The translations under genes and the position numbers were made by a program. Below, piece by piece: positions 1,650-55,900 of a DNA stretch of 64,000 nucleotides. The notes under the pieces are model-generated. The model was given only the letters and a program-made list of their open reading frames with translations. It did not search any database and had not been told where the DNA came from. Position 1 is the stretch's first letter, and each line of letters begins with the position of its first letter. The DNA comes from Apostichopus japonicus (lineage: Eukaryota > Echinodermata > Holothuroidea > Aspidochirotida > Stichopodidae): NCBI RefSeq assembly GCF_037975245.1, contig NC_092567.1, positions 26,833,544-26,897,543 on the forward strand, written 5' to 3'.

Positions 1650-7090
<5,441 letters not shown>

Positions 7091-15758: not shown

Positions 15759-15769
15759 GTCAGTCAGTC
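13605..15769 (+). mobile_element. 5'-truncated RTE-type LINE inserted in the 67-bp satellite
   Basis: Satellite sequence stops after ATTCTACGGT (13,595-13,604) and resumes with the same ten bases (15,770-15,779), a target-site duplication. The element ends just after its stop codon in GTCAGTCAGTC, a very short 3' end with a simple repeat, typical of RTE-clade elements. The endonuclease part is absent, as expected from 5' truncation on insertion. Confidence 0.88.
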
Positions 15770-26939: not shown

Positions 26940-27067
26940 TCAAGTCCATGGAATCCAGTTTCCACCATGCAGCATTGGGTTGGAATTAGGATCTCTTGGC
27001 TTCCTTGCAGATGGTATCATAGTGGAATTGTAAAACCGCAGTCGGTCCATTAGTTCTGACAATATGT
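26940..27067 (-). CDS. arylsulfatase exon 10 (C-terminus, stop)
   Basis: Phase 1 start, 41 residues and TGA at 26,940-26,942. It encodes [20 protein letters not shown] and ends GGNWIPWT; the RL-x-x-Y/F and W-x-PW elements are characteristic of the end of ARSB-like proteins. Acceptor TTCGTCAACAG. Confidence 0.92.
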
Positions 27068-30000
27068 CTGTTGACGAATTAAATATAAATGTATGAAAGA
27101 AAGTGATTTCTTAAGAACAGGCTCTAAAATACACTTTCAGAAACTTAATCCAAAGTCTGACAAAGAATTCATGAAGCTAATAAACTTCAACTTTGCAGAT
27201 ACATAGTTAATATAAGTTTTCTTAATGCAAACAAACCAAAAAATGTTATTTAGTTTATAAATATCTTACAAGCATGCAATATCTAATATGAAACACATAA
27301 CGTTAAAAACAACCAGAACGCCAGTTGGTTTTGTGGTTCCTTTGCTGACTTTCTGACAAATGTAGAGCAGTTGAGTTAAATTTGAAATAACTATCTGACT
27401 AATGTAGAGCAGTTGAGTTAAATTTGTCCAAGAATGAAGTGAAAACCAGAAAAGATCAGAGATTCCCAGCTCTTACTTGTAGCACTCCCTTGTGGGCATC
27501 GACCATTCCATCTACAGTATCGAACGTTTATTCCAAAATGTTTCAATATCCAGAAAGAACAGTCTTCTTATTTGAAATATACTCAAATATATGTATGAAT
27601 AAATGGACATTTTCTTTTACCAATTTTGAGCTACCAATCTTGTAACCATCCCTTTAATAATTGTTATTAATGAATGACGCACTCCTGACATTGTATATAC
27701 ACTGTGAAATATTTTCACAACTTACTGCCAAAGCAAATGTCATCTACTATAAATCATAGAGAAAATGCCCAATTTTGAGACCTCTTGAGCCAATTTTTCC
27801 ACAATTTGAGATAACCTGTTGATCCCTTGAAGCCCAGAGGGTGAAAACTGATAAGTAACCATAAAAGTACTGATTACTGTATGTATTGAGACTTACAGAG
27901 CCCTTCACTAAACTAAACTGAATTTGACCAAACCATGTTCATCAAAAGAACATAATCATAGCACTTGAGAATGCACATGTTAATTGGAACTTTAATTTTG
28001 GAGTTTAAAAGGTTTTCAGACTTTGACCTCCGGCTGATCTCACTTGACCTTTGACATCTACAAATTTCAATATGATTCTTGCACTCACCAAGCTGGATCT
28101 ACATACTAAGTATGAAGTTCAAGAAAGATGTACCAATTGTGTTTCATGTTTACAAGATTTTTTTGACTTAAATGTTGACTGCAAATGACCTTTGACCTCC
28201 ACCAGTTTCAACAAAGATGTAGTTTTAAAGTCATCATATTTACAAAGTTTTCAGACTTTGACCTCTGTTGACTACAAATGACCACCTAACTTCACAGAAA
28301 AGAACAGGGTTCTTTTACCCAGGTCAACAGATCCATATACCTAGTATGAACTTAATCCACCATGAACTTCCTTTAGTTACGTTGTTTACAAGCAAGTGTC
28401 ACATACGCACACACACGCCCACACACACGCACGCACCATCACATAGATTCCTTCAACCTGCAGTAAGGAATGATAAACTAACATCTTTGTACAAACTCAG
28501 TCATCAAAAGAAAATAAATAAAAAGTCTGACAACAACATTATTGAGGGTCAATATTAACTTCTGCACTGGTTTCTCTTCTCAGACTCAATTCATAAAACT
28601 TACCTGGATACATATCTGCAAGGTTGTAGAATTCACATGGATCATTAGGGATGTGGTACAAACAGGGTTTCTTAGCAGGGTCACAGTTGGTGCTAGCATT
28701 AGCCGGAATCGGTGGGCAGTATACAACACTTGCCTTTGGCAATTTCTCATGTTCTGTTTGGACAGAATGGAGATAATCATATAACACATAGGGTGTATGA
28801 CACTTAGAAAACTTTATGCACAACTGGACAAACTTACGATAGAATTAAATATCTTTCTCCCTTCCCTTCCCTTCCCTTCCCTTCCCTTCCCTTCCCTTCC
28901 CTTCCCTTCCCTTCCCTTCCCTTCCCTTCCCTTCCCTTCCCTTCCCTTCCCTTCCCTTCCCTTCCCTTCCCTTCCCTTCCCTTCCCTCCCCCTCCCCTCC
29001 CTTCCCTTCCCTTCCCTTCCCCTCCCTTCAATTTTAGTAACATTTTCACACAAATTGTCGATACATTTCTTGAAGCATGATATGATAGCGTAAGATAACT
29101 CTACTTACCATTATTTTCACCCTCTGGAGGATACCAGCCGGACCATTGACCATCATAAACATTACCAGTGATGACCTTGTAATCACCGCTTCTGAGAGCT
29201 CCATAGCTACCAACTGGATCGATGTTTAGTAGTATCTCCCTGCGAGGAGACGGACTATCACTGAAAGACGCAATAAGAGACCAACAATCGTGTTCAACAC
29301 TTAAATCATACACTTGCGAAACAATTAATGGGTGATAAGTATGCTTTATCCTTGCATCAGAAAAGAAGGCAGTTTTAGTCTTTATTCACAGATGTGAGGG
29401 GGAAAGGGGCTGAAGCTGGTCAGAGGATGGAGATATGGGAGAGGGGGGAAGGTTATATAATCTGCCCTGTTTCAGAAATTCTTTGAATGTAATTATTATA
29501 TCCTCATTTGTACATTGAGAACAGGAAAAAATGTTTGGATTTTTGTTAATCCTAAATAAACTGACAAAATTTAAGAATTAGATTTATTTCAATTCAAACA
29601 GATACAAGATTAAAAGTTGACCAAACCAAATAATTTTCCAATGGTAAGGTGATTGGAGGCAGAAATATAAATTCTGTTCTGCTTCAAAAATAATTTTATA
29701 ATTTAAATAAAAGTGGAACTGGATATCCTAGCCTCACTTTTACATTGGGACCACCATGAAATATTTCCAATATTGGTATTTTTAGAGAACTGGCAATAGA
29801 CATCACATGTGACGCACAATTGGGTGTCGTCGGCATACATCATATACTGAAACCATGACGGACAATTATATCCTCAATGGGTGCCGTGTACAAACTAAAT
29901 AATTCTGGTCCCAACACTGAACCCTGGCGGACACAACAATCTAAAGGTTTAACATCCGACATGACCGACCCAACTGTCAAACCTCAAATATGAACTAAAC

Positions 30001-33000
30001 CACTTATGTACCACACCATCAATACCAAACCTCGAACACAACCAGCAGGTTCTCAGAGAGATTCCTCAACACATGGACTAGTTTCTTGAAAGGATTATCC
30101 TAGGATTATCCTAGGATTATCCTAGGATAGTCCTAGGATTATCCTAGGATTACCCTAGGCCCCATGTAACATACTTTGATATTGTATCCCAGATATCGAA
30201 CCCATCGTAAGTATCTTCGCTGATGTTGCCACCGGCTAATTTCAGGATCGTTGGGTAGAAATCAGTCACGTGGAGGAGTTTATCAGAAATCCGACCCTTC
30301 TTGTTAATGAGTGGGCTGTGTACAAATGACGTTCCCCTAACTCCTCCTTCCCAGAGGGTGTGCTTCACACCCCTCAATGGGAAGTTGTTGGCATAGTTAC
30401 CATCAAAGCCATGAGCTGGACCTCCATTGTCGGTTGTAAATATTATTATGGTGTTATCATACAGGCCAGCTTCCTTCAGGTAAGCAGTTACATTACCCAC
30501 AGAGTCATCTAAAGCAGCTACCATGCCTGGAGATAAACAAGAATATAACGCAGAATGCAGAATGTGACGCAGTTATAAGGTATCCATGGAATACTTTCCT
30601 TATTATCTGCTATTATCTGCTTATTATATGCTGTTACCTCCGACCATATGGTAGCCTAACACAATGGGAAAATCTTGCCTAACCATTGGTTTGCAAAAAA
30701 ACAAAAATCACACTGCGTAGGATTGGGTAATAAATAAGTATCGCTTCGGGCGGGTACCCGGATACCCCATGCAAACACTATTTGAAAACAGTTCACAATA
30801 ACATGGTTATATGCTAAACTAATAAAGCTTTGGTTGACACAATCCGATTGAGCACCAAAATGTTTTGTTTTGTATTATTTGTGTACATTTTCAATTTTGA
30901 TTGAAAATTTGAAAGGACTTTCAAGTTTTTTGCAAACTTAAGCTTAAAGAGGCAACAACATGAATAAAGCAATTAATATTCAAATAAACTGTAAAAATTC
31001 TTCCTACCAGCAAATTTTCTACGCTTTTCAAAGCTGATGTGAGGAAATCGATCGATATATTCTTGTGGGGCTTGTAGAAGGTCATCTTTGTTGGCACTGT
31101 GTACGGCTTGGTGGGCCAGGTAGAGAAAGAGGGGCTGTCAAGAATAAATCAGAGAGGACTTGTTTGAGCAGCATGGCCTGAGGAATACTGGGGGAGCACA
31201 GGAGAGAGTAGTAGAAGGCAGAATGGGTGAAATTAGGATGGATGAAGGTGGTGTCCCTAATGGAAGGCAGATTGGGTAAAATTAGGATGGATGAAGGTGG
31301 TGTCCCTCATGGAAGGCAGAATGGGTGAAATTAGGATGGACGAAGGTGGTGTCCCTCATGGAAGGCAGAATGGGCGAAATTAGGATGGACGAAGGTGGTG
31401 TACCTCATGGAAGGCAGAATGGGCGAAATTAGGATGGACAAAGGTGGTGTACCTCATGGAAGGAAGAATGGGTGAAATTAGGATGGACGAAGGTGGTGTC
31501 CCTCATTGAAAGCAGAATAGGCTAAATTAGGATGAAGGTATAAAATAATATTCAGAAGGATGATTTGAAAAGAAATAATATTGCTAACAATCTTTGATAG
31601 CAATTTAAGAAAATGTCTTTGTAAGGAATGTTTTAAGGTTTTGCCTCTCCTACTGCTGACCAGTCTATAATATATTTAAGAGGAATTTCTCTGAAAGTAG
31701 TACCCTTTTCAGTTCAAAGAATCTTGGTTCATTTTTTCAATAAACATATACGGTAGGTACAATGCAATAGTGCATATTATCCATTACAATGTACATGTGC
31801 CAATATATGCATGTTATAGATTTTAGACATTTTCAAAGCAATTAATGGCCTGCCCTAAAAAATAACTCACCTTGCTAGGGTCATGACCTTTGATGATTTC
31901 TCCTGCTTTTGCTGTAAATATCTCTGTTGAGTATTGGCCAAACACTGGCTTGTATACATTCCCATCTTGGTGAAAGTCAAACCCTGTGAAATTTTGCTTT
32001 AATAAACAGCAGATATCATGAATATGCAACAGCAATTGCCACATTGTTGTAAATAATAACATTAATATGTAAACCAAACTAAACTGTCAGACATATACTA
32101 AGCCAATGATAATGCTAATGAATAACCAATACAATTACACAATACAACTACATCATGAATATGCAACAGCAATTGCCACATTGTTGTAAATAATAACATT
32201 AATACGTAAACCAAACTAAACTGTCAGACGTATACTAAGCCAATGATAATGCTCATGAATAACCAATTACACAATATAACTACATCATGAATATGCAACA
32301 TTTTATCGGCATGTCTTCTAGGTAGTTTTGACAATTTCCTAATGTTCATACCACTCTATACTGTATTCTCGTATCGTGCTTCAGAGCACTTGAACTGACA
32401 GTAAAAACAGTTCCTGACCTTTATCGAATAGAAACAAGAATGTTCATACTGCTCATACTGTCAGTACACCTTCCTTGAAGCATTAAAGTACAGTATGAAA
32501 GCAATAATCAACACTAGGTTTTATTTCATAAGCAATTGCTGTAAGCATGGATTAAAATATCATCATTCCTGACCATAACAAAGTCAATATCATTTATCAT
32601 CTTATGAACATGTAACAGCTCACCTCATGAATATGCAATAGCTTATCTCATAATTGATATGGTTGAAGAAGTCACCTTTACCACAGTAGTATCCATAGTA
32701 AGAATCAGGGCCGTCTTAAGAGATCACCGGGCCCTGGGCCCGGTAATGGAGCGGGGCCCCTCAATCAAGTGAGTTCGAAAAGATTTGCGTGAAAAATTGA
32801 CATCCTTGACAAGCGCTCACACATAGACATGCCTGCATTTACCAACCCTCCCTATGTCGCGCATAAAGCATACAACTTTAGCTGAATAACATACGTGATA
32901 TATCTAAAAGCTGAAATACATTATAGAAGAGTAATCTTCCAGTTGCCCTCCATCCCTTCCCTAACAATACTGGACTCACCATTTGTAACACCCTTGTGTT

Positions 33001-36000
33001 GAGTCTTTCAACTGAAAGGAGTGTAGGCGGTTTTACACTATCTAACGCAACGTAGTCGCCAAGCGCATGAAGTATTTTTAAGGGAGGGCGCGAGGAACAT
33101 GAACTTATAGCATGCTCCTCATGGTGAAACATAATTGCACCTATTAGGTGAATTGAGTGTACTGTTAATGGTAGGAGAGACTAGCGTAGGTTCTTATGAC
33201 CAACTAGACCGGTTTCTGCTCTCAAACTTTATAGGAGGAGCTTCATCAGTAGTAGCCTTTGAATATTTTATATTCGGCCTGGGCGTCTCGTTTTCAAAAT
33301 GCATCTATTTTCTGTGCACAAGTTTTTATGGACTCATAGTGCAGCAATAAGAGCATCTAAAAGAGCTTCGTGTGAACCTTGAGAGTCAGCTGATTCTTCG
33401 TTAGTACGAAACCTTAAGTTAACAAGTAAATCTTTGAGATTTTGGGCCCTTTTGTAGGCTCGAATCGGTTCTTTTGGAAACAGTTTGGATAATTCCGCGT
33501 GTTGCGAGATTAAGTGCCAATGTTTCAAAAGTGCTTTTTTTTTCAAATGCGTGATTTTGATATGGGGTGTATAGGTGAGCTTGAACACAAGTGGTGGTTC
33601 CTTTTGTTTAGGTTCGGTAGTGAGGTATTGCCCACGGTTTCAAATTTTATGCCTTTCGTGGCTGAGGCAATATCCTCTTTCTTATTGTTACGGAGTAACA
33701 GTTTCTCTGTGTAAGCCTTCGGGGGATTGTATATTCCAGGGTTGCCAACTCAGATTGGAATATTTAATGTCAAACTCTCAAGTGTTTCACCAACTCTCGC
33801 CACAAGTTGTCAAGTATCGAATTCAATCAGGCATAATGGCCTATTCAAAAAGTTTTCCTCCCATATTAAGACATGGGGTTACTATGATTGCGGGGCCCCT
33901 GACATCACGGGCCCTGGGCCAGGGCCCAGTGGGCCCATGCGTTAAGATGGCCCTGGTAAGAATCAAAGCCTCTTTGTGTTCCAATGTAAACCTCATTATA
34001 GAATATATAACAGCTCACCTCATGAATATGAATAAGCTTACCTCATAATTGATATGGTTGAATTAGTCACCTTTTCCACAGTAGTATCTATAGTAAGAAT
34101 CTAAGCCTCTTTGTGTTCCAATGTAAACCTCATTATAGAATATGTAACAGCTCACCTCAATATGTAACAGCTCACCTCATGAATATGCAATAGCTCACTG
34201 CATAATTGATATGGTTAAAGTAGTCACCCTTACCACAGTAGTATCCATAGTAAGAATCAAAGCCTCTTTGTGTCGCAATGTAAGCTTTATTATAGAATAT
34301 GTAACAGCTCACCTCATGTATATGCAATATCTCACCTTATGAATATGCAATAGCTCACCTCATAATTGATATGGTTGAAGTAGTCACCTTTACCACAGTA
34401 GTATCCATAGTAAGAATTAAAGCCTCTTTGTGTTCCAATGTAAACCTCATTATAGAATATGTAACAGCGCACCTCATGAATATGCAATAGCTCACCTCAT
34501 AATTGATATGGCTGAAGTAGTCAGCCTTACCACAGTAGTATCCATAGTAAGAATTAAAGCCTCTTTGTGTTCCAATGTAAGCCTCATTATAGAATATGTA
34601 ACAGCTTACCTCATGAATATGCAATAGCTCACCTCATAATTGATATGGTTGAAGTAGTCGGCATTACCACAGTAGTATCCTTAGTAAGAATTAAAGCCTC
34701 TTTGTGTCGGAATGTAAACCTCATTATAGAATATGTAACAGCTCACCTCATGAATATGCAATAGCTCACCTCATAATTGATATGGTTAAAGTAGTCACCT
34801 TTACCACAGTAGTATCCTTAGTAAGAATTAAAGCCTCTTTGTGTTGGAATGTAAACCTCATTATAGAATATGTAACAGCTCACCTCATGAATATGCAATA
34901 GCTCACCTCATATTTGATATGGTTAAAGTAGTCACCCTTACCACAGTTGTATCCATAGTAAGATTCAAAGCCTCTTTGTGTTCCAATGTAAACCTCATTA
35001 TAGAATATGTAACAGCTCACCTCATGAATATGCAATAGCTCACCTCATAATTGATATGGTTGAAGTAGTCACCTTTACCACAGTAGTATCCATAGTAAGA
35101 ATTAAAGCCTCTTTGTGTCGGAATGTAAACCTCATTATAGAATATGTAACAGCTCACCTCATGAATATGCAATAGCTCACCTCATATTTGATATGGTTAA
35201 AGTAGTCACCCTTACCACAGTTGTATCCATAGTAAGATTCAAAGCCTCTTTGTGTTCCAATGTAAACCTCATTATAGAATATGTAACAGCTCACCTCATG
35301 AATATGCAATAGCTCACCTCATAATTGATATGGTTGAAGTAGTCACCTTTACCACAGTAGTATCCATAGTAAGAATTAAAGCCTCTTTGTGTCGGAATGT
35401 AAGCTTTATTATAGAATATGTAACAGCTCACCTCATGAATATGCAATAGCTCACCTCATAATTGATATGGTTGAAGTAGTCACCTTTACCACAGTAGTAT
35501 CCATAGTAAGAATTAAAGCCTCTTTGTGTCGGAATGTAAACCTCATTATAGAATATGTAACAGCTCACCTCATGAATATGCAATAGCTCACCTCATAATT
35601 GATATGGTTGAAGTAGTCACCTTTACCACAGTAGTATCCTTAGTAAGAATTAAAGCCTCTTTGTGTCGGAATGTAAGCTTTATTATAGAATATGTAACAG
35701 CTCACCTCATGAATATGCAATAGCTCACCTCATAATTGATATGGTTGAAGTAGTCACCTTTACCACAGTAGTATCCATAGTAAGAATTAAAGCCTCTTTG
35801 TGTCGGAATGTAAACCTCATTATAGAATATGTAACAGCTCACCTCATGAATATGCAATAGCTCACCTCATAATTGATATGGTTGAAGTAGTCACCTTTAC
35901 CACAGTAGTATCCATAGTAAGAATTAAAGCCTCTTTGTGTCGGAATGTAAACCTCATTATTGAATATGTAACAGCTCACCTCATGAATATGCAATAGCTC

Positions 36001-39000
36001 ACCTCATAATTGATATGGTTGAAGTAGTCACCTTTACCACAGTAGTATCCATAGTAAGAATCAAAGCCTCTTTGTGTCGGAATGTAAGCTTTATTATAGA
36101 ATCCAAGATGCCACTGATGATGTAAAGAAGAAAAAAGCCCCCCAAAAAATAATAAACAAAAGTGGGAAAATTTTTCGAAATTTTTTAAACCCAAACAAAA
36201 CAGTAGTAAAGGGGTCAATTTATGCAAGAGAATCCACTAAAATAAACTACAAAGAAATCCTAAAAAGAGGTTCTCAGTATTGGCTCTGAATTTTTAACAT
36301 TTACAATATAAATGAAAACTTTATATGAGAGAAATTCTGACTCAAATTACTCCATAACTTTGAAGAGGATTCAATTAGCCAATTAAATGATTCCACAAGG
36401 GAAACAATTAAAATGTTGTCATGAAACCTTTATCTTGTTTCAACATGAATGTGGTCATTTAACTCAATCTGTCTAATTTCTGACATATTTAAGGCAATAT
36501 TGATGACTTTTTGTGAGAGAGAAAATAAATGTCTGCAAAACAAGAAAGAAACAATTTCTAAATGATATTAAAAAGAATAAACTGGATGATTTCATGCATT
36601 TCATTTCTCAATTCAGAAAAAGTGAGATTAATACTGCCTACTAAACATGACCTGCTTGTGTACCATACATATTTCTCAATCTAGATAAAGTGAGATTAAT
36701 ACTGCCTACTACACATGACCTGCTTGTTAGTGTACCATACATATTTCTCAATTCAGAAAAAGTGAGAATAATACTGACTACTAGACTTGACCTGCTTGTT
36801 AGTGTACAATACATATTTCTCAATTCAGAAAAAGTGAGATGAATACTGCCTACTAGACTTGAGCTGCTTGTTAGTGTACCATACATATTTCTCAATCTAG
36901 ATAAAGTGAGATTAATACTGCCTACTACACAAGACCTGCTTGTTAGTGTACCATACATATTTCTGAATCTAGATAGAGTGAGATTAATACTGCCTACTAG
37001 GCTTGAGCTGCTTGTTAGTGTACCATACATATTTCTCAATCTAGATAAAGTGAGATTAATACTGACTACTAGACTTGACCTGCTTGTTAGTGTACAATAC
37101 ATATTTCTCAATCCAGATAAAGTGAGATTAATACTGCCTACTACACATGACCTGCTTGTTAGTGTACCATACATATTTCTCAATTCAGAAAAAGTGAGAT
37201 TAATACTGCCTACTACACATGACCTGCTTGTTAGTGTACCATACATATTTCTCAATCTAGATAAAGTGAGATTAATACTGCCTACTAGGCTTGAGCTGCT
37301 TGTTAGTGTACCATACATATTTCTCAATTCAGAAAAAGTGAGATTAATATTGCCTACTAGACTTGAGCTGCTTGTTAGTGTACCATACATATTTCTCAAT
37401 CTAGATAAAGTGAGATTAATACTGCCTACTACACATGACCTGCTTGTTAGTGTACAATACATATTTCTCAATTCAGAAAAAGTGAGATTAATACTGCCTA
37501 CTACACAAGACCTGCTTGTTAGTGTACCATACATATTTCTCAATCTAGATAAAGTGAGATTAATACTGCCTACTAGGCTTGAGCTGCTTGTTAGTGTACC
37601 ATACATATTTCTCAATTCAGAAAAAGTGAGATTAATACTGCCTACTAGACTTGAGCTGCTTGTTAGTGTACCATACATATTTCTCAATCTAGATAAAGTG
37701 AGATTAATACTGCCTACTACACATGACCTGCTTGTTAGTGTACAATACATATTTCTCAATTCAGAAAAAGTGAGATTAATACTGCCTACTACACAAGACC
37801 TGCTTGTTAGTGTACCATACATATTTCTCAATCTAGATAAAGTGAGATTAATACTGCCTACTAGGCTTGAGCTGCTTGTTAGTGTACCATACATATTTCT
37901 CAATTCAGAAAAAGTGAGATTAATACTGCCTACTAGACTTGAGCTGCTTGTTAGTGTACCATACATATTTCTCAATCTAGATAAAGTGAGATTAATACTG
38001 CCTACTACACATGACCTGCTTGTTAGTGTACCATACATATTTCTCAATTCAGAAAAAGTGAGATTAATACTGCCTACTAGGCTTGCGCTGCTTTTTAGTG
38101 TACCATACATATTTCTCAATCTAGATAAAGTGAGATTAATACTGCCTACTAGGCTTGAGCTGCTTGTTAGTGTACCATACATATTTCTCAATCTAGATAA
38201 AGTGAGATTAATACTGCCTACTAGACTTGACCTGCTTGTTAGTGTACCATACATATTTCTCAATCTAGATAAAGTGAGATTAATACTGCCTACTACACAT
38301 GACCTGCTTGTTAGTGTACCATACATATTTCTCAATTCAGAAAAAGTGAGATTAATACTGCCTACTAGGCTTGAGCTGCTTGTTAGTGTACCATACATAT
38401 TTCTCAATCTTGATAAAGTGAGATTAATACTGCCTACTACACATGACCTGCTTGTTAGTGTACCATACATATTTCTCAATCTAGATAAAGTGAGATTAAT
38501 ACTGCCTACTACACATGACTTGCTTGTTAGTGTACCATACATATTTCTCAGTTCAGAAAAAGTGAGATTAATACTGCCTACTACACATGACCTGCTTGTT
38601 AGTGTACCATACATATTTCTCAATCTAGATAAAGTGAGATTAATACTGCCTACTAGGCTTGAGCTGCTTGTTAGTGTACCATACATATTTCTCAATCTAG
38701 ATAAAGTGAGATTAATACTGCCTACTAGGCTTGAGCTGCTTGTTAGTGTACCATACATATTTCTCAATCTTGATAAAGTGAGATTAATACTGCCTACTAA
38801 ACATGACCTGCTTGTGTACCATACATATTTCTCAATCTAGATAAAGTGAGATTAATACTGCCTACTAGGCTTGAGCTGCTTGTTAGTGTACCATACATAT
38901 TTCTCAATCTTGATAAAGTGAGATTAATACTGCCTACTACACATGACTTGCTTGTTAGTGTACCATACATATTTCTCAATTCAGAAAAAGTGAGATTAAT

Positions 39001-41998
39001 ACTGCCTACTAGGCTTGAGCTGCTTGTTAGTGTACCATACATATTTCTCAATCTTGATAAAGTGAGATTAATACTGCCTACTACACATGACTTGCTTGTT
39101 AGTGTACCATACATATTTCTGGTTTCAGTTGTTTTCCGCATACGTTACTTTCCGCTGATTACTTTCCGCTGAAAAAATTCTTCTGCGGAAAACACCGATT
39201 TTTCACTTGCCTGTACACTATATTTTTCCGCAATTTTGAGATACCAAATTCAGGCAGGATGATTAAAATAACATGAGAAAGTATCAAAGAACGTCGATCA
39301 AGGATGGTTAGACTGAGTTCATGTCAGAATAGTTAAGCTGCTTATAATTTAGAGGAGGCTTGGGGTGTTCGTAATTACGAATTATTAAAGAAGCATATAA
39401 TACTGGGCAAAGGGACGCCCGCGTTATGAAGGATTGAGTATCTAATTAAGTATTAAATATTCGGCCCGCGTAATGATGGTTTAACAAAAAAGGTGTAAAA
39501 GGCGGTATCTTTGATTTTCGCTGGAAATAAAATGGCTGTATAAGTAAGCCTTACAGCCTAAGCTACAAGTACAACCTTAGCTACTGTATCCTAAATCTAG
39601 TCTCGAAGCTACATTTTATCCTGTTACAGTCAAATCCTATCTTATCCATCTTCCTAAATCCCTCCATGTGCCTAATAATTTCAGTAAGTCATTCTGTTCC
39701 TCCCAAAAAGAAACGGTACTTTCCGTTGAAAAAAACGTTGTTTTCCGCTGACAAATTTGTTTGCGGAAAACAACGTTTTGTTTCAGCGGAAAGTAACGTG
39801 TGCGGAAAACAACGGTACCCCATATTTCTCAGTTCAGAAAAAGTGAGATTAATACTGCCTACTACACATGACCTGCTTGTTAGTGTACCATACATATTTC
39901 TCAATCTAGATAAAGTGAGATTAATACTGCCTACTACACATGACTTGCTTGTTAGTGTACCATACATATTTCTCAATCTAGATAAAGTGAGATTAATACT
40001 GCCTACTACACATGACTTGCTTGTTAGTGTACCATACATATTTCTCAGTTCAGAAAAAGTGAGATTAATACTGCCTACTACACATGACCTGCTTGTTAGT
40101 GTACCATACATATTTCTCAATCTAGATAAAGTGAGATTAATACTGCCTACTACACATGACTTGCTTGTTAGTGTACCATACATATTTCTCAATTCAGAAA
40201 AAGTGAGATTAATACTGCCCATTACACAAGACCTGCTTGTTAGTGTACCATACATATTTCTCAATCTTGATCAAGTGAGATTTGGTTGCTTTTTTACCCT
40301 TTGTTCAAAACAAAGTCTCTGTTTGTTCTTGCTGAGCATTTATTGAGAAGCCCTGGCATAAGATGTTACATGAGTAGTCACATCAATTCAGCCTGTTTTC
40401 AGCAAAATTTCATGCATCTTCTAAATCTATTACAATAAGTAAATTAACAGCAGAAAGCAGGCAGGATGGTTATAAAAAAATTTGAAAGGAGCAAAGGAAG
40501 TGTTGCAGTTTAAGTATGGAAATGCTGAAGCAGAAACTGTTTAACCTCATAACAGGCATGTAGAATGACAAACAATGATACCTTGCCAACTGCATGGGTC
40601 GTGTAACCTAATTGTCTCAATTTTTCTGGTAACATGGTGAAGTTCAGAGGAACCCCATAGGGTCTCGATGCACCTATTGTGAGTGTCTGCATACCTGTCA
40701 ACAGGGTTATCAAAAAGCAACATGATATTAAAAGTGCACCCCCTTCTTCCAGATATAATACCTTTCCGACTGCATGTGTCTTGTAACCCAACTGTCTTAG
40801 TTTTTCTGGTAACATGGTGAAGTTGAGGGGTACTCCATAGGGGTGAGTTGCAATGATGACACCAGTCTGCAAACCTGTCGACAGGATTTATCAAAATACA
40901 AGGGCAGGTTCACCATGTTAAGATTACTTGATCCTATAATTTCCCAATGGCATCTCTTAAGCCAGTTGTCTCAACTTTACAGTTAGCATGGAGAAATGAG
41001 TAACATTGTATCAGTCTACACCTCTGTCACCAGGCAAGGTGTATCACCAATTTATTATGCAGCAAACACAGTGTTCTTTCATCACCAATTTGCAATTATC
41101 GTTATACCTTTCCGACTGCATGCGTCTTGTAACCCAATTGTCTTAGTTTCACTGGTAACATGGTGGAGTTGAGCGGGACTCCATACGGCTCAGTTGCTTC
41201 GATGGTATCGGTCTGCATACCTGTCAATAGCGTATTTTAAATGTAAATATCGCTCCTGACTTTGAAAACTTGGCAAGTTTGGGGGAATGTGACCATGACA
41301 ATGCCCTCTTGACCAATGATTTAAATCAGAAACAAATTTTGACCTGCAATATCATTTAAATGTTCAAGTATGGAATCACCAAACAAAAGCCATTTCACCT
41401 TTAAACTGAGGCTCTAAAAGATATGTAACAAACAAGAACTAGATAGAAGGATACCTCTATACACAATTAAAAGAAGTCCCCACTAAAACCTGTACCTGTA
41501 TGTATGGCATATCTACCAGTGAGCAGAGCACTTCGAGTTGGTGTGCAAATTGGTAACACATAATAGTTGAACAAAATCACACCATCAAGGGCAAGCTTGT
41601 CCATATTTGGTGTCAATATTTGAGGAGAGCCATGAAAGCTTACATCATTCCAACCCTGAAAAATAAAGAAAAACAAAATAATTTTCATGAATAAATGTCT
41701 AAGAACTTTCTAACACACCAGACAAACATTGTACATTCATCCATGAACAAACTATGCAGGTGTACAAATTGAGGCTCTGTGACATTAATATCCACGGCCC
41801 TAACCTGGATATAGGGGCTCCAGTGAACGGATGCTATAGAGTGGCAAGCTTACCTTGGCATATGTACCAAGTTTCTGAACTTACCAAATCATCGGCTACA
41901 ATCACAACCACGTGAGGCTGACTGAAGGCCACAACACCAGAAACCACTGACAGAAAAAACACCACAGAAAAATGGACGAGTTGAACAGAGGTCACCAT
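26940..41998 (-). CDS. arylsulfatase B-like sulfatase (whole gene, 10 coding exons, 3 alternative exon-3 copies)
   Basis: A secreted or lysosomal sulfate-ester hydrolase of the formylglycine sulfatase family, closest in pattern to the ARSB/ARSI/ARSJ group. Using one copy of exon 3, the ten exons join to 510 residues (human ARSB is 533). A signal peptide lies at about 1-25. Active-site residues by family knowledge: D36-D37 (VADDLGWND), C75 in CTPTR (converted to formylglycine by SUMF1-type enzymes) with R79, K129 in VGK, H131 in WHLG, H220, D283-N284 in TDNGG, and K305 in RGVK. Glycosylation sequons occur in exons 3, 5, 7, 9 and 10. All junctions keep frame: phases 0,1,0,0,0,1,2,1,1. The substrate cannot be told from sequence; ARSB acts on N-acetylgalactosamine 4-sulfate. 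The introns carry many tandem arrays and transposons. Confidence 0.95.
27068..27979. other. arylsulfatase intron 9, no other feature
   Basis: A ~50-bp direct duplication (CTGACNAATGTAGAGCAGTT) lies at about 27,351-27,425. Otherwise nothing recognised. Confidence 0.4.
27980..28265. repeat. dispersed-repeat-like segment with TGACCTTTGACCTCC motifs
   Basis: The phrases CAGACTTTGACCTC and GACCTTTGAC recur several times at irregular spacing, in the manner of an old dispersed repeat. Family not recognised. Confidence 0.35.
28604..28753 (-). CDS. arylsulfatase exon 9
   Basis: Phase 1 to 1, 49 residues plus a split Glu. It contains [20 protein letters not shown], equivalent to the L-F-x-x-x-x-DPxE-x-x-NL segment near the sulfatase C-terminus. 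Cysteines are plentiful. Acceptor CAAACAG, donor CCAG|GTAAG. Confidence 0.94.
28852..29029. repeat. (CCTTC)n pentanucleotide repeat in intron 8
   Basis: About 34 copies of TTCCC with a few CCCC variants near 28,985-29,025. It gives long lysine/glycine/arginine-like or serine/leucine/proline frames that are not genes. Confidence 0.97.
29109..29260 (-). CDS. arylsulfatase exon 8
   Basis: Phase 2 to 1, 50 residues. It has [12 protein letters not shown], matching the family S-P-R-x-E-x-L-x-N-I-D element, then [17 protein letters not shown]. Acceptor GCGTCTTTCAG, donor AATG|GTAAGT. Confidence 0.95.
29770..30065 (-). pseudogene. degraded LINE reverse-transcriptase fragment in intron 7
   Basis: In minus orientation the frames give [17 protein letters not shown], then [20 protein letters not shown], then [13 protein letters not shown], in correct RT order but with frameshifts and stops between them. 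The pattern is that of CR1/L2/Rex-type elements. Confidence 0.75.
30094..30160. repeat. 11-bp tandem repeat (CCTAGGATTAT)
   Basis: Six near-identical copies lie within 15-80 nt of the exon 7 donor. Each unit contains the palindrome CCTAGG. Confidence 0.93.
30175..30526 (-). CDS. arylsulfatase exon 7 (D-N metal ligands, Lys)
   Basis: Phase 1 to 2, 116 residues. [13 protein letters not shown] opens it. Then [14 protein letters not shown] carries the Asp-Asn metal/formylglycine ligands, and [17 protein letters not shown] carries the active-site Lys. GFDIWDTIS closes the catalytic domain. Acceptor TTTATCTCCAG, donor TCAAA|GTATGT. Confidence 0.97.
31008..31134 (-). CDS. arylsulfatase exon 6
   Basis: Phase 0 to 1, 42 residues. 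[13 protein letters not shown] contains the conserved sulfate-binding His, followed by APQEYIDRF and KRRKFAG. Acceptor TTATTCTTGACAG, donor GCTG|GTAGG. Confidence 0.95.
31213..31535. repeat. 49-bp minisatellite in intron 5
   Basis: About 6.5 copies of GGAAGGCAGAATGGGTGAAA-TTAGGATGGACGAAGG-TGGTGTCCCTCAT, with single-base variants shared between neighbours (GTACCTCAT, GGGCGAAA). Confidence 0.95.
31871..31996 (-). CDS. arylsulfatase exon 5
   Basis: 42 codons, phase 0 to 0. It begins [17 protein letters not shown], then [23 protein letters not shown]-x-x-FT is a strong family marker. Two acceptors are possible: AAAG before CAAAAT at 31,996, which keeps frame with exon 4, and CACAG before GGTTTG, which would shift frame unless a tiny exon lies between. 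I chose the first. Donor AAG|GTGAGT. Confidence 0.88.
32010..32300. repeat. 137-bp tandem duplication in intron 4
   Basis: Two near-identical copies (start near 32,017 and 32,154, including CAACAGCAATTGCCACATTG) and a partial third near 32,286. The TCATGAATATGCAA motif is shared with the exon-4-derived array, but the rest is intronic and different. Confidence 0.85.
32325..32515. mobile_element. short MITE-like element, copy 2
   Basis: Diverged relative of 7,397-7,600. It shares TTCATACTGCTCATACTGTC and AAAGTACAGTATGA, and the left half is partly complementary to the right. Confidence 0.5.
32698..33963. mobile_element. hAT-like element with 8-bp target duplication
   Basis: The element is 32,706-33,955 (1,250 bp) and is flanked by GTAAGAAT at 32,698-32,705 and 33,956-33,963. 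The ends are inverted: CAGGGCCGTCTTAA at left and the complement of CAGGGCCATCTTAA at right, continuing imperfectly through GGGCCCTGGGCC-rich sequence. An 8-bp duplication and CAGGG ends are hallmarks of hAT transposons. No transposase is visible, so it is non-autonomous. Confidence 0.88.
33334..33588 (-). pseudogene. Penelope-like or related retroelement fragment inside the hAT-like element
   Basis: An 84-codon frame with [18 protein letters not shown] and [17 protein letters not shown]. The pattern (HW...L...FP..P..AY+R..NL+D.LV) is what I know from the region following the RT in Penelope-like elements. No RT core or complete GIY-YIG domain is seen. The fragment is broken and was probably carried inside the element. 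Confidence 0.5.
36003..36113 (-). CDS. arylsulfatase exon 4 (WHLG; parent of the 137-bp array)
   Basis: 37 codons, phase 0 to 0. It starts [20 protein letters not shown] with the active-site His and ends DYFNHINYE. It is matched to exon 3 by the VGK|WHLG junction. The acceptor is strong (CTTTTTTCTTCTTTACATCATCAG in two pyrimidine blocks), donor GAG|GTGAGC. A second GAG|GTGAGC lies 23 nt into the intron and would shift frame. Confidence 0.96.
36114..36612. other. arylsulfatase intron 3, exon-proximal part
   Basis: A/T-rich, with the branch and pyrimidine region of exon 4. Nothing else recognised. Confidence 0.5.
36613..40279. repeat. 72-bp minisatellite in intron 3 (~41 copies), open on both strands
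   Basis: Monomer: TTTCTCAATCTAGATAAAGT, GAGATTAATACTGCCTACTA, CACATGACCTGCTTGTTAGT, GTACCATACATA. Two main left variants (CAATCTAGATAAAG and CAATTCAGAAAAAG) alternate with three middle variants (ACACATGACCTG, GGCTTGAGCTG, GACTTGACCTG), forming a 4-monomer (288-bp) higher-order unit around 37,380-38,030. Since 72 is a multiple of 3, long frames exist on both strands (about 644 codons plus, 708 codons minus). They are explained by the repeat. Interrupted at 39,121-39,820. Confidence 0.96.
39112..39829. mobile_element. 700-bp MITE with TTCCGC-rich inverted ends in the 72-bp array
   Basis: The insert is 39,121-39,820, flanked by CATATTTCT on both sides (9 bp, or 8 bp by a stricter reading). The ends are inverted: left GTTGTTTTCCGCATACGTTA, right the complement of GTTGTTTTCCGCACACGTTA, continuing through ACTTTCCGCTGA. 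The interior is unique with no ORF. The duplication length fits hAT (8) or Mutator-like (9) elements. Confidence 0.82.
40582..40694 (-). CDS. arylsulfatase exon 3c (alternative copy)
   Basis: 113 bp, phase 1 to 0, 37 residues after the split Gly. It begins [16 protein letters not shown] and ends [14 protein letters not shown]. Acceptor AACCCTGTTGACAG, donor AAG|GTATCA. It is the copy nearest exon 4. Only 67 nt separate its start from the end of copy 3b. Confidence 0.93.
40762..40874 (-). CDS. arylsulfatase exon 3b (alternative copy)
   Basis: 113 bp, phase 1 to 0. It begins [16 protein letters not shown] and ends [14 protein letters not shown]. Acceptor AAATCCTGTCGACAG, donor AAG|GTATTA. Similar to 3c over the second half, different over residues 1-10 of the exon. 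Confidence 0.93.
41108..41220 (-). CDS. arylsulfatase exon 3a (alternative copy)
   Basis: 113 bp, phase 1 to 0. It begins [16 protein letters not shown] and ends [14 protein letters not shown], with NST in place of NFT and V for E before KLRQ. Acceptor CTATTGACAG, donor AAG|GTATAA. It is 233 nt from copy 3b. Confidence 0.93.
41496..41655 (-). CDS. arylsulfatase exon 2 (catalytic Cys)
   Basis: Phase 0 to 1, 53 residues and the first base of a Gly. [10 protein letters not shown], then [12 protein letters not shown], then [18 protein letters not shown]. The Cys of C-x-P-x-R is the residue converted to formylglycine; the fourth position is Thr rather than the common Ser, which occurs in other sulfatases. 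Acceptor TTTATTTTCAG, donor ACAG|GTACAG. Confidence 0.96.
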
Positions 41999-48700: not shown

Positions 48701-51403
48701 AGTTAGGGTTAGGGTTATGGTTATGGTTAGGGTTAGGGGTAGGGGTTAGGGGGTAGGGGTTAGGGGGTAGGGGTAGGGGGTAGGGTTAGGGGGGTTAGGG
48801 TTAGGGTTAGGGTTAGTATGGTTAGGGTTAGGGTTAGTATGGTTAGGGTTAGGGTTAGTATGGTTAGGGTTAGTATGGTTAGGGTTAGTATGGTTAGGGT
48901 TAGTATGGTTAGGGTTAGTATGGTTAGGGTTAGTATGGTTAGGGTTAGTATGGTTAGGGTTAGTATGGTTAGGGTTAGGGGGTTAGGGTTAGGGTTAGGG
49001 GTTAGGGTTAGTAGGGTTAGTAGGGTTAGGGTTAGGGTTAGGGGTTAGGGTTAGGGTTAGGGTTAGGGTTAGGGTTAGGGTTAGGGTTAGGGTTAGGGTT
49101 AGGGTTAGGGTTAGGGTTAGGGTTAGGGTTAGGGGTTAGGGTTAGGGTTAGTAGGGTTAGGGTTAGGGTTAGGGTTAGTAGGGTTAGGGTTAGGGTTAGG
49201 GTTAGTAGGGTTAGGGTTAGGGTTAGGGTTAGTAGGGTTAGGGTTAGGGTTAGGGTTAGTAGGGTTAGGGTTAGGGTTAGGGTTAGTAGGGTTAGGGTTA
49301 GGGTTAGGGTTAGGGTTAGGGTTAGGGTTAGGGTTAGGGTTAGGGTTAGTAGGGTTAGGGTTAGGGTTAGGGTTAGGGTTAGGGTTAGGGTTAGGGTTAG
49401 GGTTAGTAGGGTTAGGGTTAGGGTTAGGGTTAGGGTTAGGGTTAGGGTTAGGGTTAGGGTTAGGGTTAGGGTTAGTAGGGTTAGGGTTAGGGTTAGGGTT
49501 AGTAGGGTTAGGGTTAGGGTTAGGGTTAGTAGGGTTAGGGTTAGTAGGGTTAGGGTTAGGGTTAGGGTTAGGGTTAGTAGGGTTAGGGTTAGGGTTAGGG
49601 TTAGGGTTAGGGTTAGGGTTAGTAGGGTTAGGGTTAGTAGGGTTAGGGTTAGTAGGGTTAGGGTTAGGGTTAGGGTTAGGGTTAGTAGGGTTAGGGTTAG
49701 GGTTAGGGTTAGGGTTAGGGTTAGGGTTAGGGTTAGGGTTAGGGTTAGGGTTAGGGTTAGGGTTAGGGTTAGGGTTAGGGTTAGGGTTAGGGTTAGGGTT
49801 AGGGTTAGGGTTAGGGTTAGGGTTAGGGTTAGGGTTAGGGTTAGGGTTAGGGTTAGGGTTAGGGTTAGGGTTAGGGTTAGGGTTAGGGTTAGGGTTAGGG
49901 TTAGGGTTAGGGTTAGGGTTAGGGTTAGGGTTAGGGTTAGGGTTAGGGTTAGGGTTAGGGTTAGGGTTAGGGTTAGGGTTAGGGTTAGGGTTAGGGTTAG
50001 GGTTAGGGTTAGGGTTAGGGTTAGGGTTAGGGTTAGGGTTAGGGTTAGGGTTAGGGTTAGGGTTAGGGTTAGGGTTAGGGTTAGGGTTAGGGTTAGGGTT
50101 AGGGTTAGGGTTAGGGTTAGGGTTAGGGTTAGGGTTAGGGTTAGGGTTAGGGTTAGGGTTAGGGTTAGGGTTAGGGTTAGGGTTAGGGTTAGGGTTAGGG
50201 TTAGGGTTAGGGTTAGGGTTAGGGTTAGGGTTAGGGTTAGGGTTAGGGTTAGGGTTAGGGTTAGGGTTAGGGTTAGGGTTAGGGTTAGGGTTAGGGTTAG
50301 GGTTAGGGTTAGGGTTAGGGTTAGGGTTAGGGTTAGGGTTAGGGTTAGGGTTAGGGTTAGGGTTAGGGTTAGGGTTAGGGTTAGGGTTAGGGTTAGGGTT
50401 AGGGTTAGGGTTAGGGTTAGGGTTAGGGTTAGGGTTAGGGTTAGGGTTAGGGTTAGGGTTAGGGTTAGGGTTAGGGTTAGGGTTAGGGTTAGGGTTAGGG
50501 TTAGGGTTAGGGTTAGGGTTAGGGTTAGGGTTAGGGTTAGGGTTAGGGTTAGGGTTAGGGTTAGGGTTAGGGTTAGGGTTAGGGTTAGGGTTAGGGTTAG
50601 GGTTAGGGTTAGGGTTAGGGTTAGGGTTAGGGTTAGGGTTAGGGTTAGGGTTAGGGTTAGGGTTAGGGTTAGGGTTAGGGTTAGGGTTAGGGTTAGGGTT
50701 AGGGTTAGGGTTAGGGTTAGGGTTAGGGTTAGGGTTAGGGTTAGGGTTAGGGTTAGGGTTAGGGTTAGGGTTAGGGTTAGGGTTAGGGTTAGGGTTAGGG
50801 TTAGGGTTAGGGTTAGGGTTAGGGTTAGGGTTAGGGTTAGGGTTAGGGTTAGGGTTAGGGTTAGGGTTAGGGTTAGGGTTAGGGTTAGGGTTAGGGTTAG
50901 GGTTAGGGTTAGGGTTAGGGTTAGGGTTAGGGTTAGGGTTAGGGTTAGGGTTAGGGTTAGGGTTAGGGTTAGGGTTAGGGTTAGGGTTAGGGTTAGGGTT
51001 AGGGTTAGGGTTAGGGTTAGGGTTAGGGTTAGGGTTAGGGTTAGGGTTAGGGTTAGGGTTAGGGTTAGGGTTAGGGTTAGGGTTAGGGTTAGGGTTAGGG
51101 TTAGGGTTAGGGTTAGGGTTAGGGTTAGGGTTAGGGTTAGGGTTAGGGTTAGGGTTAGGGTTAGGGTTAGGGTTAGGGTTAGGGTTAGGGTTAGGGTTAG
51201 GGTTAGGGTTAGGGTTAGGGTTAGGGTTAGGGTTAGGGTTAGGGTTAGGGTTAGGGTTAGGGTTAGGGTTAGGGTTAGGGTTAGGGTTAGGGTTAGGGTT
51301 AGGGTTAGGGTTAGGGTTAGGGTTAGGGTTAGGGTTAGGGTTAGGGTTAGGGTTAGGGTTAGGGTTAGGGTTAGGGTTAGGGGTTAGGGTTAGGGTTAGG
51401 GTT
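48701..51403 (+). repeat. interstitial or terminal telomeric repeat block (TTAGGG)n
   Basis: 2.7 kb. 48,701-48,990 is degenerate (GGGGTTAGGG variants, and a 15-bp TTAGGGTTAGTATGG sub-array at 48,810-48,970). 48,990-49,690 mixes TTAGGG with TTAGTAGGG. About 49,691-51,380 is essentially pure TTAGGG (about 280 copies). The G-rich strand runs left to right, so a chromosome end would lie to the right, yet satellite continues there. Confidence 0.98.
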
Positions 51404-51409
51404 CAGACC

Positions 51410-51660
51410 AATGCCCACTTGGGACGTCAGAATGCCCACTCGGGACGTGAAAATGCCCAGTCGGGACGTGAAAATGCCCAGTCGGGACGTGAAAAAATTT
51501 CTAAGTACAAAATGCCCTATCGGGACGTGAAAATGCCCTATCGGGACGTGAGAATGCCCTATCGGGACGTGAGAATGCCCTGTCGGGACGTGAAAGTGCC
51601 CAATCGGGACGTGAAAGTGCCCAATCGGGACGTGAAGAAAATGGACAGTCGGGACGTGAC
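51410..51660. repeat. ~21-bp tandem repeat (CGGGACGTGAAAATGCCCAGT)
   Basis: About 11 copies of CGGGACGTGAAAATGCCC with variable CAGT/TAT/CAAT ends and one ~20-bp interruption near 51,490-51,510. It lies between the telomeric block and the large satellite. Confidence 0.93.
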
Positions 51661-51950
51661 AAAATATTATACAAAAAATACTTCCCCGGGGGTGGGGGTG
51701 TTGTAATTCATACTTTTAGATACCCCTGCACCCCTTCGACAAATTGGCGTCATTTTGGTAAAAATTTGAGGGGGGTGAATTTTTGGGGTGGGGGACCCCA
51801 CCCCCAGTGCAAAACTTGGGGGGGCATCTTCAAACTTTTTTTACCCTTCCGTTACATCCTATTGATGACGTCATAAAAATTTCAGCTCATTTGCATATTC
51901 GGTTAATTAATTAAAATTCATTAACCGATCTGCCTAACACTAAATTACTC
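51661..51950. other. spacer between 21-bp repeat and satellite
   Basis: G-rich runs (GGGGGTGGGGGTG, GGGGTGGGGGACCCC). Nothing else recognised. Confidence 0.4.
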
Positions 51951-52992
51951 TATATACGGGAAAATACCTACTTTTATACTTTGGAGCGTTACCATGGTTA
52001 CTGGGTCAGTCCGATTTCCCCCATCTTTTCAGGGTACCACCGCTAGGGTGTCACCTGTCCGAAATAGGATGAAACTTGTAGGTGCGTCTCTTTCCCGGGG
52101 TGGTAGGGGGGTAATTTTGAAAAAAAGTCTAAAACGGTCATAATAATTAGTATTACTACGTACGGGAAAATCCCGACCCTTCTACTTTGGAGCGTTACCA
52201 TGGTTACTGTGGTGGTCCGATTACGGCCATCCTTTCAGGGTACCACCGCTAGGGTGTCCCCTTTCCAAAATAGGATTAAACTTGTAGGTGCTTCTCATTC
52301 CTGGGTGATAGGGGGTCATTTTGAAAAAAAATCTGAAAAGGCATAATAATTTGCTATATACGTTTTTGAAAATCCCGACCCTTCTACTTTGGAGCGTTAC
52401 CATGGTTACTGTGGTGGTCCGACTACGGCCATCCTTTCAGGGTACCACCGCTAGGGTGTCCCCTTTCCAAAATAGGATTAAACGTGTAGGTGCTTCTCAT
52501 TCCTGGGTGATAGGGGGTCATTTTGAAACAAAATCTGAAAAGGCATAATAATTTGCTATATACGTTTTTGAAAATCCCGACCCTTCTACTTTGGAGCGTT
52601 ACCATGGTTACTGTGGTGGTCCGACTACGGCCATCTTTTCGGGGTACCACCGCTAGGGTGTCCCCTTGCCGAAATAGGATGAAACTTGTAGGTGCGCGTC
52701 TCTTCTCCGGGGTGGTGGGGGGTCATTTTGGAAAAAAAATCCGAAGAGGTCATAATAATTAGTGTTACTTAGTGTTACTATGTACGGGAAAATCCCGTCC
52801 CTTCTACTCTTGAGCGTTACCATGGTTACTGGGGTGGTCCGATTACGGCCCTCTTTTGAGGGTACCACCGCTAGGGTGTCCCCTTTCCAAAATATGATGA
52901 AACTTGTAGGTTTGTCACTTATCCGGGGTGGTAGGGGGTCATTTTGAGGAAAAGTACAAACAGTCAGCAAAAAACTCTCGGTAGCGTGCGCC
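51950..52992. repeat. ~202-bp satellite monomers
   Basis: About five monomers with landmarks TACGGGAAAATCCCGACCCT, GAGCGTTACCATGGTTACTG, GGGTACCACCGCTAGGGTGT, TCCGGGGTGGTAGGGGGTCA and CATAATAATTAGTGTTACTA. The two monomers around 52,340-52,560 are nearly identical. Confidence 0.92.
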
Positions 52993-55900
52993 ATGGGACG
53001 CCCGGAAGGTATTAAATTCCCCCACCACTCCCCACGCCTACGAACCGCCAAAATAATCTCAGATTCATCATCAGCACCCCAAGAAGCACCAGAACAGGTG
53101 TATTTCGTTCTTTTTTGGAGACACCCACTTGGGGTCGTGCCCCCCTCCCAATGGTTTTTGGCCCCCCATGCCCCCACACAACACCCACTTCCAAAATTAA
53201 CTTCAGATTCGTGATCAGCGTGTCGAGAACAATCAGAAAAGATACACACTGCCCGTCTTTGCGACAAAAATTATTTTCACCCAAAAAAACCATAAGGGGT
53301 ACCCCTTACGGTTTTTACCGAAATTGCCCCAAAATGGATTTGGTCAAAATGACGTCACAGGGGGTAATCGATGCCCAGGAGTCCAAATCTGCAACTCCCA
53401 GGTCCATACCTGCTTCCGTTCGGGAGATATAGGGTCCCAGAGGACCCGATAGAAATACGTGTTCTTCATACGAGCAAAAGTTGGAAAACCCCCTCTTGTC
53501 AACCCCCCCTCCTGTCCTCTCTGAAGTACCCATCGAAATGAAATTTTGACGTGTAGTAGAAGACACCCTCGTCATTGTCATACATCAATTTCGTGTAATT
53601 ATATGACCGGAAAAGGCTCTTTGTATATATGATTTCTATCTGCGCCAAAAATAGGTGTTTTTGTCTTGAAAAGTTAAAAAAAATACCTATTTTCGGTACC
53701 CCTTCCTTTCCACCGAGGGTATGTGACGGGGCTGAATTTTGGTTATGTGGGAGAAGAGAGTCGTAGCTACGTGTAGACAACTCATACGGTAGCATTAATT
53801 TTCGGGAAGGGGGTATAGTCTATACGTTTTTGAGGTCCCCCCCAAAGTAGGTGTTTTTCACCGGTAGTAGTTATAAACGTTTTTTCGAAATCCCGACATT
53901 TATACTTTTGAGCGTTACCATGGTTATGGGAATCAGTCCGATTTCCCCCATATTTTCAGGTTATCACCGCTAGGGTTTCCCCTTTCCAAAATAAAATAAA
54001 CTTGTAGGTGCGTCCCTCCTCCGGGGTGGTGGGGGGGTCATTTTGGAAAAAATCCGAAAAAGTCAAAATAATCAGTGTTACTATGTACGGGAAAATCACG
54101 ACCCTTCTACTTTCGAGCGTTACCATGGTTACTGGGGTGGTCCGATTTTGACCATCTTTTCGGGGTACCACCGCTAGGGTGTCCCCTTCCCACATTTGAA
54201 TAAAACTTGTGAGTGGGTCTCTTCTCCGGGTGATAGGGGGGTCAGTTTGGAAAAAATCCGAATAGGTCATAATAATTAGTGTTACTATGTACGGGAAAAT
54301 CCCGACTCTTCTACTCTGGAGCGTTACCATGGTTACTGGGGTGGTCCGATTACGGCCATCTTTTCGGGGTACCACCGCTAGGGTGTCCCCTTTCTAAAAT
54401 AGGATGAAACCTGTAGGTGGGTCTCTTCTCCGGGGTGGTAGGGGGGTCAGTTTGAAAAAAATCCGAAAAAGTCATAATAATTAGTGTTACTATGTACGGG
54501 AAAATCACGACCCTTCTACTTTGGAGCGTTACCATGGTTACTGGAGTGGTCCGATTACGGCCATCTTTTAAGGGTACCACCGCTAGGGTGTCCCCTTTCC
54601 AAAATTAGAATAAAACTTTTAGGTTTGTCACTTCTCCGGGGTGGTAGGGGGTCATTTTGAGGAAAAGTACAAACAGTCAGCAAAAAACTCTCGGTAGCGT
54701 GCGCCATGGGACGCCCGGAAGGTATTAAATTCCCCCACCACTCCCCACGCCTACGAACCGCCAAAATAATCTCAGATTCATCATCAGCACCCCAAGAAGG
54801 ACCAGAACAGGTGTATTTCGTTCTTTTTTGGAGACACCCACTTGGGGTCGTGCCCCCCTCCCAATGGTTTTTGGCCCCCCATGCCCCCACACAACACCCA
54901 CTTCCAAAATTAACTTCAGATTCGTGATCAGCGTGTCGAGAACAATCAGAAAAGATACACACTGCCCGTCTTTGCGACAAAAATTATTTTCACCCAAAAA
55001 AACCATAAGGGGTACCCCTTACGGTTTTTACCGAAATTGCCCCAAAATGGATTTGGTCAAAATGACGTCACAGGGGGTAATCGATGCCCAGGAGTCCAAA
55101 TCTGCAACTCCCAGGTCCATACCTGCTTCCGTTCGGGAGATATAGGGTCCCAGAGGACCCGATAGAAATACGTGTTCTTCATACGAGCAAAAGTTGGAAA
55201 ACCCCCTCTTGTCAACCCCCCCTCCTGTCCTCTCTGAAGTACCCATCGAAATGAAATTTTGACGTGTAGTAGAAGACACCCTCGTCATTGTCATACATCA
55301 ATTTCGTGTAATTATATGACCGGAAAAGGCTCTTTGTATATATGATTTCTATCTGCGCCAAAAATAGGTGTTTTTGTCTTGAAAAGTTAAAAAAAATACC
55401 TATTTTCGGTACCCCTTCCTTTCCACCGAGGGTATGTGACGGGGCTGAATTTTGGTTATGTGGGAGAAGAGAGTCGTAGCTACGTGTAGACAACTCATAC
55501 GGTAGCATTAATTTTCGGGAAGGGGGTATAGTCTATACGTTTTTGAGGTCCCCCCCAAAGTAGGTGTTTTTCACCGGTAGTAGTTATAAACGTTTTTTCG
55601 AAATCCCGACATTTATACTTTTGAGCGTTACCATGGTTATGGGAATCAGTCCGATTTCCCCCATATTTTCAGGTTATCACCGCTAGGGTTTCCCCTTTCC
55701 AAAATAAAATAAACTTGTAGGTGCGTCCCTCCTCCGGGGTGGTGGGGGGGTCATTTTGGAAAAAATCCGAAAAAGTCAAAATAATCAGTGTTACTATGTA
55801 CGGGAAAATCACGACCCTTCTACTTTCGAGCGTTACCATGGTTACTGGGGTGGTCCGATTTTGACCATCTTTTCGGGGTACCACCGCTAGGGTGTCCCCT

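Follow-up and report, generated by a model that had tools for sequence, protein, structure and literature searches.

In a survey of human mutually exclusive exon clusters (PMC5740500), the criteria are equal exon length, shared frame, sequence similarity and absence of stop codons; a spacing below 50 bp is counted as potential steric interference, and joint inclusion breaks the frame, the exon length not being divisible by three, in 377 clusters (60%). According to PMC6071210, a too-short intron accounts for clusters of two only. A literature search by title and start of the abstract, with subscription papers mostly outside it, retrieved no report of such an exon arrangement in a sulfatase or a related enzyme. 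Here, a 64,000-nucleotide stretch of the Apostichopus japonicus genome (NC_092567.1, positions 26,833,544 to 26,897,543; the window) was analysed, which is the terminal 64 kb of contig C7 in a searched genome of 671.6 Mb and 35 contigs. Its minus strand carries a probably intact ARSB-like sulfatase gene of the S1 family, in which the third coding exon occurs in three tandem copies, 3a, 3b and 3c. We consider it likely that these three copies constitute a mutually exclusive cluster in which the reading frame enforces the choice.

Three tandem copies of exon 3

The array comprises the following features, given in transcript order:

41108..41220, minus strand: exon 3a; 113 nt, phase 1 to 0, loop QTDTIEATE, ends VGK
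40940..41023, minus strand: decayed fourth exon 3 copy (pseudo-exon); 84 nt, acceptor AG present, stops in the frame of exon 3, donor GT lost
40762..40874, minus strand: exon 3b; 113 nt, phase 1 to 0, loop QTGVIIATH, ends VGK
40695..40761, minus strand: intron 3b-3c; 67 nt, candidate branch points of the yTnAy type, their A 34 and 52 nt from the donor
40582..40694, minus strand: exon 3c; 113 nt, phase 1 to 0, loop QTLTIGASR, ends VGK

As the initial annotation had described, the three 113-nt copies (41220-41108, 40874-40762 and 40694-40582) are each preceded by AG and followed by GT, are open in the frame of exon 2 and end in VGK; re-reading of the sequence also returned the peptides that had been quoted for them. 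A repeat-family search placed the copies in one family, with 82% (3a) and 75% (3c) identity to 3b over 138 nt. Pairwise blastn revealed identities of 84% over 113 nt for 3a/3b, 77% over 114 aligned columns for 3a/3c and 85% over the last 81 nt for 3b/3c, with window-wide E values between 3e-31 and 9e-19, so that the similarity of the copies is not due to chance.

Translation of the eight possible combinations showed that only the three single-copy forms keep the frame, in line with the earlier statement that any two copies together shift it. Omission of exon 3, inclusion of any pair or inclusion of all three copies leads to a stop at codon 98, 136 or 155 of 510, with two or three copies stopping at codon 136 or 155. 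This implies that an enzyme is obtainable from just one copy per mRNA. The copies are thus adjacent internal exons of equal length and frame, similar in sequence, with intact GT-AG sites and without stops, and the frame break, due to a length of 113 nt that three does not divide, keeps any two of them from joint inclusion in a productive mRNA.

The mutual exclusivity claimed initially would therefore appear to hold at sequence level, as judged from the frame of every pair, the equal length, the weak donors and the selection on 3b and 3c; its steric part is borderline. The spacing of 3b and 3c, which had been placed close to the lower limit for splicing, is indeed 67 nt, a borderline value that concerns one of the three pairs. 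Crowding in this intron is possible but not certain, and it has no bearing on 3a paired with 3b or 3c.

The donors of the copies are GTATAA (3a), GTATTA (3b) and GTATCA (3c), none of the three having G at +5, which is found in seven of the eight remaining donors of the gene (the exception being exon 2). The pyrimidine fraction of the acceptors was determined to be 0.50 (3a), 0.56 (3b) and 0.61 (3c), compared with 0.61-0.89 in the eight other acceptors, of which the two lowest, those of exons 5 and 10, tie with 3c. Such weak splice sites fit regulated exons.

Between 3a and 3b, positions 41023-40940 align to exon 3 with gapped local scores of 21.5, 20.0 and 23.5 against 3a, 3b and 3c, compared with maxima of 15.0, 14.5 and 17.5 from 500 mononucleotide shuffles each. 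The assignment of this segment as a decayed copy is based on these alignments, the repeat-family grouping, its position in the array and the retained acceptor; lacking intact sites and carrying stops, it was not counted as a cluster member. It shows what an unused exon 3 copy looks like in this gene. At a blastn threshold of E 0.001, the 64-kb window yielded the three copies only. The next match, 16 nt long at 46273-46258 with E 0.005, was rejected as an exon 3 copy, since its surroundings do not look like an exon by eye and its gapped score against 3b, 17.0, is below the 20.5 of the decayed copy.

Selection on the copies and alternative readings

Nei-Gojobori analysis revealed 0.29 (3a/3b), 0.70 (3a/3c) and 0.62 (3b/3c) synonymous differences per site, with nonsynonymous values of 0.12, 0.11 and 0.14, respectively; codons 11-37 contain two (3a/3b), three (3a/3c) and one (3b/3c) nonsynonymous changes. 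Codon maximum likelihood analysis of the three copies together with the paralog described below, whose branch is near saturation at 8.6 modelled substitutions per codon, gave an omega (ratio of nonsynonymous to synonymous rates, dN/dS) of 0.48 for codons 1-10 and 0.09 for codons 11-37; without the paralog, the values were 0.66 and 0.04. Branch tests on codons 11-37 rejected omega = 1 for 3b (p 0.0013 with and 0.017 without the paralog) and for 3c (p 9e-4 and 3e-8, respectively). In 3b and 3c, purifying selection acts on these codons. That 3b and 3c are protein-coding is well supported, and the same is likely for 3a. In a neutral simulation with 5000 runs per copy, indels excluded, the chance of an open frame together with AG and GT was 0.17 (3a), 0.11 (3b) and 0.012 (3c), corresponding to a joint survival chance of the three copies of ~2e-4, if independent.

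Several points weigh against a cluster of three exons. The reading draws on genomic sequence, and on that of one genome. Docking/selector RNA pairing among the introns was not detected, the lowest z among 10 intron pairs, each compared with 40 shuffles, being -1.51; of the best three-way docking scores, one was reached in 6 of 30 shuffles and the other in 25 of 30, without excess over chance. The likelihood-ratio test p values for the omega contrast between the two codon classes (1.1e-5 with and 2.9e-7 without the paralog) are post hoc, since the 10/27 codon split was taken from the initial annotation; when any 10-codon window was allowed, column permutation gave p 0.07 for variable residues and p 0.012 for weighted changes. 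By codon maximum likelihood, the first ten codons do change faster, in line with the initial claim that the copies differ mostly in their first ten residues. For codons 1-10, omega = 1 was not rejected (p 0.12 and 0.32) and positive selection is unsupported, so that their rapid change could reflect either diversification or relaxed constraint. Plain blastn detects the decayed copy only weakly (E 0.018). Finally, dN/dS of each copy, which had been put forward initially as a check, departed from neutrality in codons 11-37 for 3b and 3c but not for 3a (omega 0.23-0.33, p 0.44 and 0.66), and 3a may for this reason be weakly constrained or fading.

The 3a result bears most directly on the view that only 3b and 3c are true alternatives and that 3a is a fading copy heading for the same decay as the fourth one, which we regard as unlikely. 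Apart from an omega indistinguishable from 1, it is 3a that differs from the other two at two of three variable residues in codons 11-37, and the dead copy adjoining it demonstrates that decay does occur in the array. However, 3a is open with intact splice sites, one of its odd residues is the middle of an N-x-T sequon downstream of the loop that all three copies have kept (NST/NFT/NFT, by eye), and the branch test has little power because the 3a branch is short. Selection also speaks to the idea of a single constitutive copy accompanied by cryptic or poison exons which, when included, destroy the mRNA for dosage control. The early stops upon inclusion of two or three copies and the weak donors would suit this idea, but poison exons need no protein-level constraint, and the constraint on 3b and 3c in codons 11-37 renders it improbable. 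It might also be considered that the copies arose by neutral tandem duplication not long ago, or that they are an artefact of assembling a repeat-rich region close to the contig end, in view of the 72-bp and 137-bp tandem arrays in the introns of the gene and the extension of the window to the contig end. Yet 29-70% of synonymous sites differ, too many for a segment duplicated in assembly or copied recently, and the introns flanking the copies have diverged to 10-18 identical bases of 30; we hold this to be very improbable.

For a cluster enforced by the reading frame, the reading we prefer, exon 3 would have been tandemly duplicated more than once, with three copies surviving and one decayed. 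Splicing factors would choose among the weak sites, nonsense-mediated decay would remove double-copy or skipped products, and crowding in the 67-nt intron may additionally block joining of 3b to 3c.

Gene structure, relatives and surroundings

Ten coding exons were reconstructed on the minus strand, from exon 1 starting at 41998 to exon 10 ending at 26940, with GT-AG at all introns and a predicted protein of 510 aa with any one exon 3 copy. The exons other than exon 3 are:

41885..41998, minus strand: exon 1; encodes a hydrophobic N-terminus and the first part of the sulfatase domain, donor GTAAGT, ends IVADDL
41496..41655, minus strand: exon 2; formylglycine motif CTPTR, AG/GT, leaves phase 1, aligned to human ARSB
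36003..36113, minus strand: exon 4; AG/GT, phase 0 to 0, WH immediately following VGK
31871..31996, minus strand: exon 5; AAAG acceptor 13 nt further upstream, placed by paralog comparison
31008..31134, minus strand: exon 6
30175..30526, minus strand: exon 7; Pfam Sulfatase match
29109..29260, minus strand: exon 8
28604..28753, minus strand: exon 9
26940..27067, minus strand: exon 10, with stop codon

A small exon missing between exons 4 and 5, as a phase mismatch might indicate, was ruled out by this upstream exon 5 acceptor. The best solved relative was human ARSB (PDB 1fsu; E 9.2e-118, with the query four residues short). The S1 sulfatase motifs CTPTR, VADDL, VGKWH, HQAVH and TTDNGG and one further 11-residue stretch aligned to 1fsu, and in this alignment the formylglycine motif C-x-P-x-R and the catalytic Asp, Lys, His and Asn residues are all present in the gene.

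A whole-genome search with exons 3 and 4 returned at least 42 places, 20 of which are the present gene with its exon-4 array and two the locus at C7:24.08 Mb. Among the remaining 20, 16 read through the VGK-W junction without an intron, and four are weak (E 0.05 or worse), with the alignment ending just past that junction. The one other locus found with the same exon split is the paralog at C7:24079369-24089402, where the split includes that within VGK-WHLG and exon 3 is likewise 113 nt long with phase 1 to 0; its loop is ARSB-like (LQHETIHPAAPYG), and its exon 3 donor, GTACGA, has G at +5. No second exon 3 was found in the 24 kb of the paralog examined. Since the paralog has a single exon 3, the duplications probably occurred after the split of the two genes, the alternative being a loss in the paralog. 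Exon-level matches to PF00884 in the genome number 106.

Tandem Repeats Finder (TRF) identified a 137-bp tandem array at 34012-36102 in the intron after exon 4, derived from the 3' portion of exon 4 and its donor; by eye, many units hold a copy of the donor, GAG/GTGAGC, a possible competitor of the genuine site. Use of the units as alternative exons was rejected: stops occur in 5 of 16 motif matches (exon 4 included), in one case through run-in of an insert, and later units are without the exon 4 acceptor sequence (by eye). An insert inside this array at 32720-33960, with GGGCCC-rich, roughly inverted ends and an open reading frame (ORF) at 33337-33639, looks mobile-element-like by eye. Most of the intron after exon 3c is occupied by a 72-bp minisatellite (36603-40282), interrupted by an insert of ~0.7 kb that resembles a small DNA transposon, with 38-nt inverted repeats of 89% identity at its two ends (39121-39158 and 39783-39820).

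Farther out, a GTTAGG-type telomere-like array (48702-51403, TRF) is followed by large tandem units up to the contig end at 64000; positions 48702-64000 are probably subtelomere, and the sulfatase gene lies some 22 kb inward. On the other side, a 67-bp satellite of about 130 copies (15769-24497, TRF) lies between ORFs 13540-15755 and 24678-25967, which by eye resemble pieces of retroelement reverse transcriptase. A minus-strand ORF at 6483-6971 encodes a membrane segment with CCG, which we take to resemble a tetraspanin exon.

Elsewhere in the assembly, contig C35 is the mitochondrial genome of 16,099 bases, as identified from open frames and ARAGORN tRNAs, with protein and rRNA names assigned by reading. 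Its order is COX1-R-ND4L-COX2-K-ATP6-COX3-ND3-ND4-H-S-ND5-ND6(minus)-CYTB-F-12S-E-T-P-Q-N-L-A-W-C-V-M-D-Y-G-L-ND1-I-ND2-16S, the arrangement seen in sea cucumbers and sea urchins. COX1 matches broken into several fragments were found on a second contig, at C29:14745-31219 (L066, L067, L068), representing either mitochondrial DNA inserted in the nuclear genome or a rearranged segment of the mitochondrial one.

The exon 3 loop and known sulfatases

The K of VGK, the last residue of each copy, corresponds to ARSB Lys145 (counted on the alignment), which is among the ten ARSB active-site residues given in Table 3 of PMC7404199. On the alignment, all ten are identical in the gene, with formylglycine FGly91 as Cys. 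ARSB has a single version of the loop (LQHQIIWPCQPSC), whereas the gene has three, in which, by residue numbers counted on the alignment, His111 of ARSB is Thr and Cys117 and Cys121 are absent. The net charge of the first ten residues, His not counted, is -3 in 3a, 0 in 3b and +1 in 3c.

The proposal that this loop lies beside the substrate pocket gains outside support from the exo-4S-kappa-carrageenan sulfatase S1_19B (PDB 6prm/6psm), an S1 sulfatase that matches the gene at E 1e-52. F103 of S1_19B belongs to the aromatic shelf positioning the sugar in the -1 subsite (PMC6923384) and, counted from C77, falls in the aligned loop, within an insertion that separates residues 6 and 7 of the exon 3 peptide; S1_19B is bacterial, and as its loop is longer by nine residues, the two cannot be equated residue by residue.

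Loops were compared in 20 of 64 loci, two of which (L003 and L061) are the same place. A complete ARSB-type loop was found in nine, all with His after Gln or Met (GLQH, GLMH, GTQH), as in human ARSB; L047 is gapped, L038 uncovered and L005 without a match, and the eight further loci are other sulfatase types without an ARSB-type loop or aligned only elsewhere. By eye, positions that vary among the copies vary among the nine loci too. Thr replaces the loop His in all three copies, so the change is probably older than the triplication; as the His is kept in all nine loci, the substrate may differ from N-acetylgalactosamine-4-sulfate.

It is plausible that the gene yields three sulfatases with different substrate preference, as initially suggested. 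The acidic, neutral and basic loops would adjust substrate recognition, with the catalytic lysine at the exon end constant. That splicing picks among these loops by tissue or stage, giving enzymes tuned to differently sulfated glycans, such as those of the body wall versus dietary algae, is a tentative proposal.

The substrate range of sulfatases is usually regarded as widened through gene number. Here, one gene seems to widen it through exon choice inside the catalytic pocket and, if so, three natural loops on an otherwise identical scaffold would provide a ready test of what determines sulfatase specificity. With the human clusters of PMC5740500, the present cluster shares equal length, frame, similarity, absence of stops and the frame break upon joint inclusion; it differs from them in being predicted from genomic sequence and in placing its exon in the catalytic domain of a sulfatase.

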